64,000 bases of DNA. It comes from a virus. Every line of letters begins with the position of its first letter. The stretch's first letter is position 1. The notes under the pieces are model-generated. The model saw nothing but the letters and a program-made list of their open reading frames with translations. It had not been told where the DNA came from and did not search any database. The stretch is from the IMG/VR virus record IMGVR_UViG_3300046543_000266, positions 124,001-188,000 of that record. One strand, given 5' to 3'. Positions 7,880-34,906 of the stretch are shown in pieces. Made by a program: the position numbers and the translations under genes.

Positions 7880-9955
7880 ATGACGATCTGGTACGTTGAC
7901 CCGGAAGGCGGGAACGATAGCAACGCGGGTACGAGCTTCGCGCTGCGCAAGAGGACGATGAACAGCATCGCCAGCCCTCAAGCCGGGGATCAAGTCCGTG
8001 TGATCGCGAGCCGTCCACGGCAGCAGCCGATGAACGTGACGTGGACGGATGGTTCGTCGGTGCTTACAATGGCAAACGGCGCAGTCACCAAGACGATCGA
8101 CACGTGTGACGTGGTATGGTCGATCACAGGTGGGAATCCGAGTGCTGCCACCAACGTGCAGACGGTGGGCAGTCGTCGGGAAGGGACGGCTTCTGTTCAG
8201 TTATCAATTCCGGTTGGAACGTTTACCGGCAAGATCGCATATCACAATCTTGGGACGCCGGTTGACTTGAGTGGATATAAGGGTGTATCCATGGCGTTCA
8301 TCCCGCCTAGCAATATTCCGGCGGGTAACACACTGGTCCTGGACCTCTGCTCCGATACTACCGGTGACGTGCCGATCCTCTCTATCCCGATGAACTACGG
8401 TAGCACGTCCAACGCCGCGTTCTCCAGCCCATCTGCTCAAGCCTGGACTGCAGTGGCATACGACACGGGAGCCGCGCTTCCGGCAGTCGTGCAGTCGATA
8501 GCGATTCGGATCGCGACGTCGCTGGTTGTGGGAGGCACTGGCGTTCTTATGTACATCGATAACATCCTCGCAACCTTGGGTTGGGACGATCCGAATCACG
8601 TATCTCACCTGTCGGTGATCTCGAAGGACACAGTGGCTGAGCCTGAGTATTACCCGGTCATGGCTATCAGCGGCACCTCACTGCGTATCGGAAGCGTGTC
8701 GGACACCACGACGTCGGCGCGTCCGTACAAAGGAACCACCGAGACGGTCCCCACGTACTTCCGGCTAGCAACTCGTAGCTGGGTCGGTACGGATAACCGG
8801 CTGAACAACGGCGGGACTGTAGGTAATCGCATTGTTGTCAGCGGAGGGTGGGATCGCACAGCAATGTCTACCCAGTCCGACTACACGGTGCTCACTGGAA
8901 TGGGCGCGCTCGGGACGGCTATTGATATCGGGAGCTGGTTCTCTTCGGCGTTCAACTCCGTGGAGGTGTCAGGCTTCGGCTACGCTAACTTCCCCGGAAC
9001 GCTCATTCAGATCGCACAAGGGACGGGCGATCACAAGTTCGTGTATGAATTCGTGATCGGCGGGTACTTCACGAGCCTCACCTATGTAGGGTCGGCGTCC
9101 AACGCTGGATTGCCCTATGAACTGACGGTCAAGCGCAACTACGGGTTCAACAACGGAAGTGGTCCGCTCGCGTCCGCCACAACGCTGTGGGCTATTGGAT
9201 TCACGATGGCTCCGGTCAAGCTGTACATCCGACGCGTTCACGGCCGATCCGACGGTAGCGGTATGGTGCTTCCGAGTGGCAACCGCGAGACCATGGACGT
9301 CACGATCGACCGGATCGACAACAACAGCGGCGCAGCACTGGCGGTCGCCAGCTTCTACACCAACTTCCAGTATCTGCGTGGGTGTACGCTTCAGAACAAC
9401 GACAGCGGTGACTTTGCCAACGGAAGTATCCAGCACACGCTGCATCTTGATCGCTGCTTCTTCTCCACGACGCCCTCAGTCAACGCCTTCTCGGATGACG
9501 GCTGGTCCGGCAAGCTCTTGGTGACTGCAGCCAACGGCAACGCATGGGACAACCGTGAGTATTCGAAATACTACACGTGGATATCAGATCAGGCTACCCG
9601 ACATTCGGCGGATGGAGTAGCTTGGAAGATCTCGATCCGGAACGCCAGCTTCTTCACGGCAGATGCGCCAGTTAAGAAGTCGCTGGTGAAGATCCCGTGT
9701 AAAGCGAATAGTCCGAAGACGGTCAACATGTGGATGCAGCGCGACAACGTCGGGTTGAACATGGGGCTAATGACCATGAGTGGATACGTCGCAGGGGTGG
9801 TTGATCAGCAAGTGGCAATGACCGCGGGTGCTGGAACATGGCAACTGGTGACGCTGAATTTTACACCAATAGAGGACGGACTAGTCGAGGTGTGGGGTTA
9901 CGCCTACGGCGGTACGACGTACAATGGCTGGTTTAGCGATGTGTCCGTGACGTAA
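7880..9955 (+). CDS. Tailspike-type protein, beta-helix family, paralogue 2
   Basis: 691 residues, MTIWYVDPEGGNDSNAG at the start. Same architecture as the genes before and after it: N-terminal WYVDPEGG element, a jelly-roll-like segment (GKIAYHNLGTPVDLSGYKGVSMAF, LVLDLCSDTTGDVPI), AEPEYYPVMAISG, then beta-helix rungs (TIDRIDNNSGAALAVASF, LQNNDSGDFANGS) and a C-terminal domain with KSLVKIPCKANSPKTVNMWMQRDN and FTPIEDGLVEVWGYAYGGTTYNGWFSDVSVT. The last ~120 residues are very close to those of paralogue 3, much closer than to paralogue 1. Likely a receptor-binding or glycan-degrading virion protein. Confidence 0.8.
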   Translation: MTIWYVDPEGGNDSNAGTSFALRKRTMNSIASPQAGDQVRVIASRPRQQPMNVTWTDGSSVLTMANGAVTKTIDTCDVVWSITGGNPSAATNVQTVGSRREGTASVQLSIPVGTFTGKIAYHNLGTPVDLSGYKGVSMAFIPPSNIPAGNTLVLDLCSDTTGDVPILSIPMNYGSTSNAAFSSPSAQAWTAVAYDTGAALPAVVQSIAIRIATSLVVGGTGVLMYIDNILATLGWDDPNHVSHLSVISKDTVAEPEYYPVMAISGTSLRIGSVSDTTTSARPYKGTTETVPTYFRLATRSWVGTDNRLNNGGTVGNRIVVSGGWDRTAMSTQSDYTVLTGMGALGTAIDIGSWFSSAFNSVEVSGFGYANFPGTLIQIAQGTGDHKFVYEFVIGGYFTSLTYVGSASNAGLPYELTVKRNYGFNNGSGPLASATTLWAIGFTMAPVKLYIRRVHGRSDGSGMVLPSGNRETMDVTIDRIDNNSGAALAVASFYTNFQYLRGCTLQNNDSGDFANGSIQHTLHLDRCFFSTTPSVNAFSDDGWSGKLLVTAANGNAWDNREYSKYYTWISDQATRHSADGVAWKISIRNASFFTADAPVKKSLVKIPCKANSPKTVNMWMQRDNVGLNMGLMTMSGYVAGVVDQQVAMTAGAGTWQLVTLNFTPIEDGLVEVWGYAYGGTTYNGWFSDVSVT

Positions 9956-16629: not shown

Positions 16630-16845
16630 ATGTGCACAACAGATAAAGCAATTGAATCACAAGAAGTACTCACTGAGTATGCAATCGCGGCGATCCGCAG
16701 GAACGCTAAGCGAACGCTACTTTATTCTGGACACTGTTACTACTGTGACGAGACGGTACGTTCGCCGCATCTTTTCTGCGATCTCGATTGCCGCGATGAC
16801 TGGGAACGAGAGAAACGGTTGAAGGAGATCGCTGGTAAGAAATAA
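16630..16845 (+). CDS. Small treble-clef-type zinc-binding protein
   Basis: 71 residues. The C-terminal half reads GHCYYCDETVRSPHLFCDLDCRDDWE, a CxxC-x9-CxxxC arrangement typical of small treble-clef zinc knuckles, followed by a basic helix. The N-terminal half is helical. Such proteins often bind nucleic acid or act as small adaptors. It is bounded by the AT-rich element upstream and a strong hairpin downstream, so it may be a separate transcription unit. Confidence 0.65.
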   Translation: MCTTDKAIESQEVLTEYAIAAIRRNAKRTLLYSGHCYYCDETVRSPHLFCDLDCRDDWEREKRLKEIAGKK

Positions 16846-17261: not shown

Positions 17262-17657
17262 ATGCCCACTCCCGTCGTAGGCGATTGCGCAGATTGCATT
17301 GTCGCACTGCCGCAGACTCCACCCAAAGCTCTGAAGCTCGAGACTTACGTATCCACAGGGAATCGTCTGGTGATTCAGCGTGTCGGCACGTTCACCGGAT
17401 ACTATCCCTCCAATTCGGACCCGATGGTCCACGCAGGGCCAATGGCACCGGCGAGCAGCTATACCGTGCCTTCACCCGTTTCTGGTCTGTTTGTAGCTAC
17501 AAATCAGCCTCTTAGCGTGACTGTGACGAAGGCTTCGGTCTCCATGACGTTCATTGTGAACCGTATGCTAGTTCTCGATGATACGTATGATTCGGTATCA
17601 GTGGTCAATACCGGAACCAATACGGCAGACGCCACTATCAGTTACGTGACTCCGTAA
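17262..17657 (+). CDS. Small virion-type protein, last gene of the plus-strand block
   Basis: 131 residues, beta-rich, no recognised domain. It directly abuts the preceding gene and looks like its diverged sibling. A CADC pair occurs near the N-terminus. It ends five bases before a perfect bidirectional terminator that closes the plus-strand transcription block. Confidence 0.6.
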   Translation: MPTPVVGDCADCIVALPQTPPKALKLETYVSTGNRLVIQRVGTFTGYYPSNSDPMVHAGPMAPASSYTVPSPVSGLFVATNQPLSVTVTKASVSMTFIVNRMLVLDDTYDSVSVVNTGTNTADATISYVTP

Positions 17658-17661
17658 CGTC

Positions 17662-17699
17662 AAAAGCCCCATCCGAGTGTGATATCGGATGGGGCTTTT
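17662..17699. terminator. Bidirectional rho-independent terminator
   Basis: AAAAGCCCCATCCGA (17662-17676) pairs perfectly with TCGGATGGGGCTTTT (17685-17699), a 15-bp stem with an 8-base loop flanked by A and T tracts, so it can act on both strands. It lies exactly between the converging plus-strand and minus-strand gene blocks. Confidence 0.93.
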
Positions 17700-17713: not shown

Positions 17714-17881
17714 TTACAGGCTGGAGAACGGCTTGTTTAACCAAGCAGAATACTCACCGGGTTTCCACCCACGAGCTTGCTGTTCCTGGTCAACCTTTTC
17801 GCATGTGGCAACCAGCCGCCTGACATCTTCGGCAGTTGGTTTGAAGCGCTTCGCTGCGGCAATAAGTTCAGTAACCGTCAC
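17714..17881 (-). CDS. Small hypothetical protein, 55 residues
   Basis: An open frame starting at GTG 17881 and reading MTVTELIAAAKRFKPTAEDV and onward to a TAA at 17714. GAGGAA lies six bases before the GTG. The product is helical and hydrophilic and ends GWKPGEYSAWLNKPFSSL. It follows the Acb1-like gene by 17 bases and ends just before the shared terminator, so it is the last gene of the minus-strand operon. Function unknown; its pairing with a candidate anti-defence gene is suggestive only. Confidence 0.5.
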   Translation of the reverse strand: MTVTELIAAAKRFKPTAEDVRRLVATCEKVDQEQQARGWKPGEYSAWLNKPFSSL

Positions 17882-17898: not shown

Positions 17899-18408
17899 TT
17901 ACTTCAGCGAACAGGCTTTCAGCGACTTATCGAATTCGACCGGAATCGGATTCTCCTTCAAGAAGCTGTTGGCTTCTTCCAGCCATGTACGCACTTCAGC
18001 AGTGAGCTCGACTTTCTTACCCACACTGATGTGCGGAGTGTAGTCGTCGAAGCTGTGCTTGAATTGCTGGCCGATCAGCTCGTAGTGCAAGCTCATCAAC
18101 TGCGGACTGTTGATCAACGCAACGATGATCTTCTCACCGTCTCGCTCTTCCCACACCACGAACTCCGTGAGCTCACCGCTACACGTCCGATCCTTTGGCA
18201 CGTTGACTTCGGTGGGGATATCACCCGCATGGTACAGCACGGTAGTATGGAACTCCGTGCTGTTGCGGGTTTTGAACGGCGCGTTCTTCAGGATGCGGCT
18301 GAGCAACACGACGGTGCTTTCCGTAGGATCGACCCACACGTAGAAACCACCCGTGGGGTCGCTGCCCGCGATTTCGTCGTACAAGATTCTTGCTGTGACT
18401 TTGTTCAC
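17899..18408 (-). CDS. 2H phosphoesterase, Acb1-like putative anti-CBASS protein
   Basis: 169 residues from GTG 18408, with AAGGAT five bases upstream. Two HxT/S motifs of the 2H phosphoesterase fold are visible: HTT at 54-56 (EFHTTVLYH) and HIS at 126-128 (YTPHISVG). The order and surroundings (GFYVWVD strand, EFHTTVLY, FVVWEERDGEKIIVALINSPQLMSLHYEL, YTPHISVG) follow the plan of phage Acb1 (T4 gp57B type), which degrades cyclic di- and trinucleotide CBASS signals. LigT-like RNA 2',3'-cyclic phosphodiesterases share the two motifs, but the VVWE...ALxxxSPxLxxLH middle favours Acb1. The assignment is by motif and plan; activity is inferred. Confidence 0.6.
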   Translation of the reverse strand: MNKVTARILYDEIAGSDPTGGFYVWVDPTESTVVLLSRILKNAPFKTRNSTEFHTTVLYHAGDIPTEVNVPKDRTCSGELTEFVVWEERDGEKIIVALINSPQLMSLHYELIGQQFKHSFDDYTPHISVGKKVELTAEVRTWLEEANSFLKENPIPVEFDKSLKACSLK

Positions 18409-18417
18409 GGGCTATCC

Positions 18418-19896
18418 TTACGTGTTGAAGTTGCAAAGCTGAAGCGTGATGACGGCACCAACGTTGGCGGAGTATATGATTTCATCGCCGGGCAAGAACA
18501 TTGCAGTGTCATGGTGACGTCGACCATAACCACCACCGCCGTCCTTAGTGTTGCGCGAGACCATAGCACCATTGACGGACATGGAAGTGTTGCGCGACTG
18601 GTCGTCGACCACCCATGTATGGCAGACACCCTGCTTGAATGTCCGAATCGCATTGTTGCTGGTATATCCAGGAACTGTGTTGCCGCCACCATTGATGACG
18701 ATGTTGGGTGCCGTCATGGTGAACGAGATCATCGCGTTGTTACCACCGCTCGGAGTATAGCTGTAGGGCGGAACGCTGATGGTACCGTCACCCGCTTCGT
18801 TGATTCCCGAACCGATCTTCACACCGCCGAGCTGTCCGCCGTTAGCTATCGGCAGCACATACGGAGGAGGCGGGCTGTACGGCGGATTGGCACTGATACG
18901 TCCGTTGCCATCTACAGTCAGGTAATCACCGACGATCACACCACCGAGGCTACCCGTCGTTGCTTTCGGCAGCACATACTGAGCCGGGATCACGGGCGGA
19001 TCTACGATCTGGCCGTAGTAGACAGTACCGCCGCGCTGATCGTCGCGATAGATACGCATCTGCGAGCCAATGGTCGGCGCACTCAACAGCGGATTGGCAT
19101 TCAGGTAGAATCGGTAGTTGCCGCCCGACACCACCACTTGCGATACCGAACGGAAGAACTGGTCGGCAGTCTTGATGACGAAACGTCGGTTCACAGTAGT
19201 CAGATCCGACGGGCGGAACTGTGCAGCCGGGAACTCGATCCACGTAGTCGTGCTGTTGGCAACGGTGAACGCTGAACCGTTTGCCGACGCGTATTCCATA
19301 TAGCCAGTGGATTCGAGGGACCACGTAGCATCGCTGGTGTTGGTCAGCAACGAGCTGTCCCCATGCGAGTTCAGTTCACGCACCAGAACCAGAGGGATAT
19401 CCGGATTGGCCGACAGTACCGGCGGATACACATCGCTCCAGTTGTAGACTTCCCATACCGCCGGAGGGCCGTTCATAGTGTCGATCTGGAAGACTGCCGT
19501 GGACTGTTGCAGCTTCAGCAGCGCGTGGAACGTATAGCTCGACACGACGTTGGTTCCCAGCGAGCTGTACTTCGTCTGCGGAGTTTCGAACACAGCCTTC
19601 GCGAACATCGTGCCGTCTTGCAGGAACACTGCGACCTCACCGAAGTCGAAGGGGCCAGCGTCCGGCGGGATCTCCAGAACGATGTCGATAGTGTTGTTGC
19701 CGATATTGTTGTACGTGGTGGGGACGCCGGTGTACAGCAGATTGCCGTTGATCCCAGCGTCGGTAGTCTGCGGGTCGTACCCGTAACCACTGCCGATCTG
19801 AAAGCTGGTGATGTGGATGTACGGTCCAGTCGGGGTTGCGACACTGGCAACCGCCAGCCCCCGATCGGTGATGAGAAACAGTGGAGTACCTGCCAT
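18418..19896 (-). CDS. Tail fibre protein, DUF3751-like N-terminus plus LGGV repeats
   Basis: 492 residues. The N-terminal domain (HITSFQIGSGYGYDPQTTDAGINGNLLYTG, DAGPFDFGEVAVFLQDGTMFAKAVF) is the same fibre-docking family as in the plus-strand gene at 12967. A middle domain spans roughly 150-300, then LPKATTGSLGGVIVGDYLTVDGNGRISA and LPIANGGQLGGVKIGSGINEAGDGTISV shaft repeats separated by a Pro-rich linker, and a C-terminal tip with a Gly-rich YGRRHHDTAMFLPGDEI segment. It is last but two in the baseplate operon, the usual place for the primary fibre. Confidence 0.85.
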   Translation of the reverse strand: MAGTPLFLITDRGLAVASVATPTGPYIHITSFQIGSGYGYDPQTTDAGINGNLLYTGVPTTYNNIGNNTIDIVLEIPPDAGPFDFGEVAVFLQDGTMFAKAVFETPQTKYSSLGTNVVSSYTFHALLKLQQSTAVFQIDTMNGPPAVWEVYNWSDVYPPVLSANPDIPLVLVRELNSHGDSSLLTNTSDATWSLESTGYMEYASANGSAFTVANSTTTWIEFPAAQFRPSDLTTVNRRFVIKTADQFFRSVSQVVVSGGNYRFYLNANPLLSAPTIGSQMRIYRDDQRGGTVYYGQIVDPPVIPAQYVLPKATTGSLGGVIVGDYLTVDGNGRISANPPYSPPPPYVLPIANGGQLGGVKIGSGINEAGDGTISVPPYSYTPSGGNNAMISFTMTAPNIVINGGGNTVPGYTSNNAIRTFKQGVCHTWVVDDQSRNTSMSVNGAMVSRNTKDGGGGYGRRHHDTAMFLPGDEIIYSANVGAVITLQLCNFNT

Positions 19897-34210: not shown

Positions 34211-34906
34211 TTAGATCAGATGCACGTCATCGACAGTGAACGCCGGGAGGTCCGCAGTCTTCGTAGCGTTGCCAATCTGATCACGGAGCTTCTGGTATGC
34301 GGCAAGCAACGTCGCGTATTTGTCGTTGTACGCGTTCGACTTGGCGATGATCGAAGCCGCCAGATAGGAGACTTCGATACCGCGTGCGGTTGCCAGCGTG
34401 GACAACAGATGCGAAGCGGGTTGTCCGTCGATGACTGCGTGTGCGTCGACGACTTGCTGCTTCCACGAGGCTTGCTCGGACTTCGTGTAACCTGACGACA
34501 GCGCGTAGACTGCTTCGTCGAAGTCCATGGCGGCACGCGCATACGCTGCAGACTGCTGACTGGCGATCGGTGCGTTGATCAGGTCAGCACCGACTTGCCA
34601 CGCGTTGCCAGTCCAGTAAACTACCAGTCCGGTGCCGAGTACCATCGGCGGTTCCCACGGCGTGCTGTTGTCGGGTTGCGCTGCGTCGGCGTCGAGCTCG
34701 ACACTGGTATCGTACACGGTCAGTGCGCCAACGCCCGAAGCCTTGAACAGATACCACGTTTTCTTGGCGGGCGCTGCCGGAGTTTCTTCGACAGTCGGAG
34801 CGGGTTCTTCAGCAGGAACGCCGGTCTGGATGTTGATGGTTGCATCCGGCTCGATCGTTTCAACCGTCGTCGGTTGTTCAGGAAGGGTGTCTTGAGTGTC
34901 GGACAT
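34211..34906 (-). CDS. Fibre-assembly-like protein with acidic Pro-rich N-terminus
   Basis: 231 residues. Residues 1-48 are acidic and Pro/Thr-rich. The C-terminal ~85 residues (SEQASWKQQVVDAHAVIDGQPASHLLSTLATARGIEVSYLAASIIAKSNAYNDKYATLLAAYQKLRDQI) match the helical domain common at the end of phage tail-fibre assembly and tail-chaperone-type proteins: W..Q..A..A, LxxLAxARG, Lxxxixxkxxay. The middle (WYLFKASGVGALTVYDTSVELD, TPWEPPMVLGTGLVVYWTGNAW) is strand-rich. Probably helps fold or attach a fibre. Confidence 0.55.
   Translation of the reverse strand: MSDTQDTLPEQPTTVETIEPDATINIQTGVPAEEPAPTVEETPAAPAKKTWYLFKASGVGALTVYDTSVELDADAAQPDNSTPWEPPMVLGTGLVVYWTGNAWQVGADLINAPIASQQSAAYARAAMDFDEAVYALSSGYTKSEQASWKQQVVDAHAVIDGQPASHLLSTLATARGIEVSYLAASIIAKSNAYNDKYATLLAAYQKLRDQIGNATKTADLPAFTVDDVHLI

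Follow-up and report, generated by a model that had tools for sequence, protein, structure and literature searches.

We analysed a 64,000-nt window (positions 124,001 to 188,000) of the IMG/VR virus record IMGVR_UViG_3300046543_000266. The record comprises 217,605 bases with one match to Acb1, and it comes from a large relative of the Burkholderia jumbo phages. With the enzyme Acb1, phages destroy the cyclic nucleotides that serve as alarm signal in the CBASS immunity of bacteria. The match lies at the end of a tail operon, at a junction with the following features:

18418..19896, minus strand: tail-collar fibre gene directly upstream of acb1, separated from it by a 9-nt gap (Pfam PF12571, E 2.8e-8)
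17899..18408, minus strand: acb1 homologue of 169 aa with a GTG start (Pfam PF23474, phmmer, fold match, codon score)
17714..17881, minus strand: 55-aa open frame downstream of acb1, an uncertain gene (Shine–Dalgarno-like GAGGA upstream of its GTG)
17662..17699, no strand assigned: 15-bp hairpin bounded by runs of A and T, between the converging operons (RNA fold −30.5 kcal/mol, z −5.9 versus shuffles)
17262..17657, plus strand: 131-aa convergent gene, marker of a conserved junction (homologues convergent in BcepSauron, BcepSaruman, and the metagenomic phages L048 and L055)

The open reading frame at 17899–18408 is a real gene. It encodes 169 aa from a GTG start on the minus strand, exactly as an earlier sequence-only reading of this DNA had stated, and a Shine–Dalgarno-like AAGGA precedes the GTG by ~7 nt. 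The codon score of the frame (0.26 per codon; reference genes 0.17–0.44) is genome-like, and its codon usage resembles that of the phage's large genes. The 55-aa frame scored 0.007, a value reached by 7.6% of non-coding frames. Searches for its homologues in phage records (E up to 10) returned chance-level matches only, the frame was absent from the five related records searched, and its relatives were confined to identical contigs whose copies were 100% identical over the region compared. The earlier suggestion that it encodes a partner of Acb1 was rejected on these grounds; the frame may be a gene, with no demonstrable relation to acb1.

The initial assignment had been based on two HxT/S motifs 72 residues apart. 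We located these at residues 54–56 (HTT, in HTTV) and 126–128 (HIS, in HISV), with starts 72 residues apart. Of the 158 open frames in the window with 120 codons or more, seven have two such motifs at a spacing of 60–85 residues, as do 4% of shuffles of the 169-aa protein. When a hydrophobic residue was demanded after each motif, the figures fell to one of the 158 frames and 0.6% of shuffles. By itself, the motif pair is weak evidence for Acb1; it was suggestive only, yet it indicated the right family.

Identity as Acb1 extends beyond chance because the Pfam Acb1 profile (PF23474) matched the protein with 49.7 bits (E 4.2e-13), above the curated cut-off of 27; relatives scored 47–68 bits. PHROG 755, labelled RNA ligase, also matched (E 1.9e-22), and this name is likewise borne by T4 57B-like proteins in RefSeq. 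A phmmer search against the PDB returned Acb1 entries only (9q2g, E 5.9e-30; 9q2y, E 1.5e-28; 7t26, E 3.6e-4), the nearest solved structure being Acb1 of Burkholderia phage BCSR5 (9q2g/9q2y). A profile of 11 relatives matched the Acb1 of FBB1 (7t26) with E 5.5e-36. The 169-aa protein is a true member of the Acb1 family, divergent but recognisable.

The predicted structure agreed with this assignment. An AlphaFold model of the window protein, built on 11 related sequences (pLDDT 87.8, pTM 0.83), has the 2H fold with a base-stacking pocket that characterises Acb1. All top five Foldseek matches in the PDB were Acb1-type, with TM scores to the query of 0.88 for 9q2y (E 6e-17), 0.83 for 9q2g, and 0.62 for both 7t27 and 7t26; for 7t27, also FBB1 Acb1, TM was 0.62 by query length and 0.74 by target length. 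The BCSR5 protein is 35% identical to the window protein over 159 aligned residues, is similar in length, matches the model at TM 0.88, and shares the N-terminal ILYD stretch and the catalytic motifs. It differs in the wording of these motifs (HVT and HLT in BCSR5, HTT and HIS in the window protein) and in a shorter C-terminus in the matched sequence. The T4 (gene 57B, the founding member) and FBB1 (7t26, 7t27) enzymes share the 2H fold and the HxT/HxT(S) tetrad but show 27% identity to the window protein. Sequence, profile, and predicted structure all lend good support to the Acb1-like assignment of the sequence-only reading.

In T4 Acb1, the tetrad consists of H44, T46, H113, and T115, the base-stacking residues are Y12, W74, F107, and W147, and E141 contacts adenine (PMC9117128; the T4 sequence in our alignment is numbered one residue shorter than in that paper). 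Aligned with T4, the window protein carries the HxT/HxT tetrad as H54, T56, H126, and S128, of which the first three are conserved and the fourth is Ser for Thr. Ser at this position is allowed by the general 2H motif, and all other aligned rows have Thr there. The catalytic histidines were invariant in 11 of 11 aligned rows. Three of the four stacking aromatics of T4 (Y12, W74, and F107) are kept as Y23, W86, and F120. In the alignment of the window protein, the T4 lid residue W147 has no counterpart, nor does E141, since the stretch NPIPVEFD aligned there lacks a Glu at this position; both counterparts are also missing in BCSR5, BcepSauron, and Motura. E141 bears on specificity in the T4 branch and is not demanded by the family model.

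The window protein and its relatives have a conserved N-terminal stretch (ILYxEI) with A6, L9, and Y10 invariant, and residues 6–16 of the window protein form a helix in the predicted model; T4 Acb1 is without this helix. The absence of E141 and W147 combined with the N-terminal helix is common to BcepSauron, BcepSaruman, Motura, BCSR5, and metagenomic phages. On the phylogenetic tree, the T4-like branch was split from the window clade with support of 100/99; the joining branches were long and the branching within the clade was largely unresolved. Because E141 and W147 have no counterpart in the alignment, the window protein may depart from T4 Acb1 in its need for adenine and in its range of substrates, and caution is due in carrying over T4's exact specificity. 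We consider it possible, if unlikely, that the jumbo-phage branch (window, BcepSauron, Motura, BCSR5, and relatives) is functionally distinct, with the N-terminal helix partly replacing the lid and a substrate range unlike that of T4, perhaps without an adenine requirement. If this is true, enzymes of the clade would destroy signals that T4 Acb1 cannot cleave.

The same differences bear on whether CBASS is the main target at all. A signal degrader of the Acb1 fold could act chiefly on type III CRISPR cyclic tri- or tetra-adenylate or on another nucleotide signal, as an altered lid would permit. Such a role would fit a clade without the adenine-reading Glu and the lid Trp of T4 and with a conserved N-terminal helix instead, and 9q2g and 9q2y are deposited as a phosphodiesterase from Burkholderia phage BCSR5 with a closed and an open lid, respectively. 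We nevertheless regard it as quite improbable: the protein retains the catalytic core along with three stacking residues, the PDB molecule name of the BCSR5 entry is anti-CBASS protein Acb1, and nothing but cyclic di- and trinucleotides fits a pocket of the T4 type (PMC9117128).

Slightly less credible still is a LigT-type 2H enzyme acting on RNA ends or tRNA-splicing intermediates (a 2',3'-cyclic phosphodiesterase or "2'-5' RNA ligase"), which would serve RNA repair and not immune evasion. E. coli LigT and related RNA 2',3'-cyclic phosphodiesterases share the 2H phosphoesterase fold and the two HxT/S motifs with Acb1, relatives of the window protein are named RNA ligase in RefSeq, and Pfam 2_5_RNA_ligase2 gave a weak match. 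However, this match (22.9 bits) was below its cut-off of 27, and NCBIfam TIGR02258, the LigT equivalog, scored 14.5 bits where its cut-off is 65.7, whereas the Acb1 profile exceeded its own. In the Foldseek ranking, Acb1 was followed by plant cyclic phosphodiesterase, Usb1, and E. coli LigT (TM ~0.5–0.6, E 1e-4 to 1e-3), with LigT at TM ~0.5 and E 1e-3 (5ldm, TM 0.51, E 1.4e-3) versus TM 0.88 and E 6e-17 for Acb1. The better structural match to LigT-type phosphodiesterases that the sequence-only reading had named as evidence against Acb1 was thus looked for and not found. A LigT-type RNA enzyme was rejected based on the failed TIGR02258 cut-off and the weak fold match.

Placement of acb1 behind fibre genes, noted previously, was correct. 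The genes upstream of it with the same orientation comprise a baseplate wedge gene, two more genes of which one matches a tail family, and the tail-collar gene, with which acb1 is presumably co-transcribed. BcepSauron, L015, L016, L048, and L055 each have a tail-collar homologue that is placed likewise relative to acb1. The full order of collar gene, acb1, and convergent gene recurs in BcepSauron, BcepSaruman, L048, and L055; in L015 and L016, acb1 likewise follows the collar gene. BcepSauron gp269 and BcepSaruman gp266 ("RNA ligase") are 43% identical to the window protein, occupy the same tail-operon end, and have a member of the same convergent gene family nearby. They differ in that one more gene, a homologue of phrog_2618-type genes found in relatives, stands between the collar gene and acb1, and an extra gene also precedes acb1 in L048 and L055. 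The protein preceding acb1 in L055 matches phrog_2618 and phrog_1604, and a 231-aa homologue of it is encoded in the window at 34211–34906 (minus strand, E 6.5e-28), 16 kb away. In T4 and Vibrio phage D479, acb1 follows a tail-fibre chaperone gene (57A in T4); in T4 it is co-oriented and close behind that gene, much as the window acb1 follows a tail-fibre gene.

The strong, symmetrical hairpin at 17662–17699 is probably a bidirectional terminator for the acb1 operon and the convergent fibre-like genes; a consensus terminator scan, which needs at least five T in eight, did not report it. Across the convergent junction from acb1, on the opposite strand, the window encodes a 71-aa DksA-like zinc-finger protein (16630–16845, plus strand; phrog_54, E 5.8e-9), whose homologue BcepSauron gp270 lies just downstream of acb1 in that phage. 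Because the gene order recurs in related phages, the acb1 site looks like a stable tail-operon end in this lineage and not a special anti-defence island. The "anti-defence spot" proposed earlier was not supported: the neighbours are tail and fibre genes, in an order common to related phages.

That acb1 in several phages immediately follows the tail-collar gene in the same orientation, together with an Acb1-like stretch within the Pam3 portal protein 8hds, could suggest a fibre-associated protein whose 2H fold is kept for a structural tail role and not for catalysis, but the invariance of the catalytic histidines across 11 rows and the position of Motura acb1 next to helicase and head genes, away from tail genes, make this reading barely credible. 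The stretch in question, residues 500–586 of 8hds_A near the C-terminal end of the cyanophage portal protein, matched the Acb1-family profile with E about 1e-5 and keeps HVT and HIS motifs, which makes it an Acb1-like domain embedded in a protein of the virion.

Phages retain the gene with 34–46% identity at the protein level. A plasmid search yielded no relative, the BCSR5 protein gave no match when viral contigs were scanned by pattern, and a scan of bacterial genome contigs with the clade alignment, weak as evidence and limited to a single peptide pattern, confirmed no relative. RefSeq labels the acb1 genes of BcepSauron and BcepSaruman (8989–9501 in both loci, L001 and L002) as RNA ligase, and GenBank as prohead protease or hypothetical protein; these homologues are probably misannotated.

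Judged by its family and its residues, the window protein is very likely a divergent Acb1, that is, a metal-independent phosphodiesterase of the 2H fold that linearises the cyclic di- and trinucleotides of CBASS. The analysis establishes its family, predicted fold, catalytic residues, and gene order; hydrolysis, substrate range, timing, and protection from CBASS are what we infer for it. As in T4 Acb1, the 2'-OH of the substrate would attack the 3'-5' bond, with acid-base catalysis from the HxT/HxS tetrad (H54, T56, H126, and S128) and with the bases stacked against Y23, W86, and F120. With the alarm signal, a cyclic di- or trinucleotide, linearised, the effector would stay off and the infected cell would survive long enough to release phage. 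Besides T4, nine further acb1 genes gave products that all cleaved 3'3'-cGAMP and cAAA (PMC9117128), and because nine of nine were active, transfer of this activity to the window protein is supported, with the qualification that the nine may lie outside the window clade. No assay description for BCSR5 Acb1 (9q2g/9q2y) was found in the literature searched. Because acb1 is co-oriented behind tail genes in its operon, its product is probably made in the late phase, and late expression would fit the late onset of CBASS in infection (PMC9117128).

The Acb1 family was already known, and the window protein adds a divergent member with a solved relative. With it, the family now includes a lineage of large phages that are uncultivated, and acb1 holds one place, the tail-operon end, in several phages related to BcepSauron. 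The differences from T4 in the lid and the adenine contact pose a concrete, testable question on substrate range. Our results also suggest that labels such as RNA ligase and prohead protease in such phages hide CBASS evasion enzymes.
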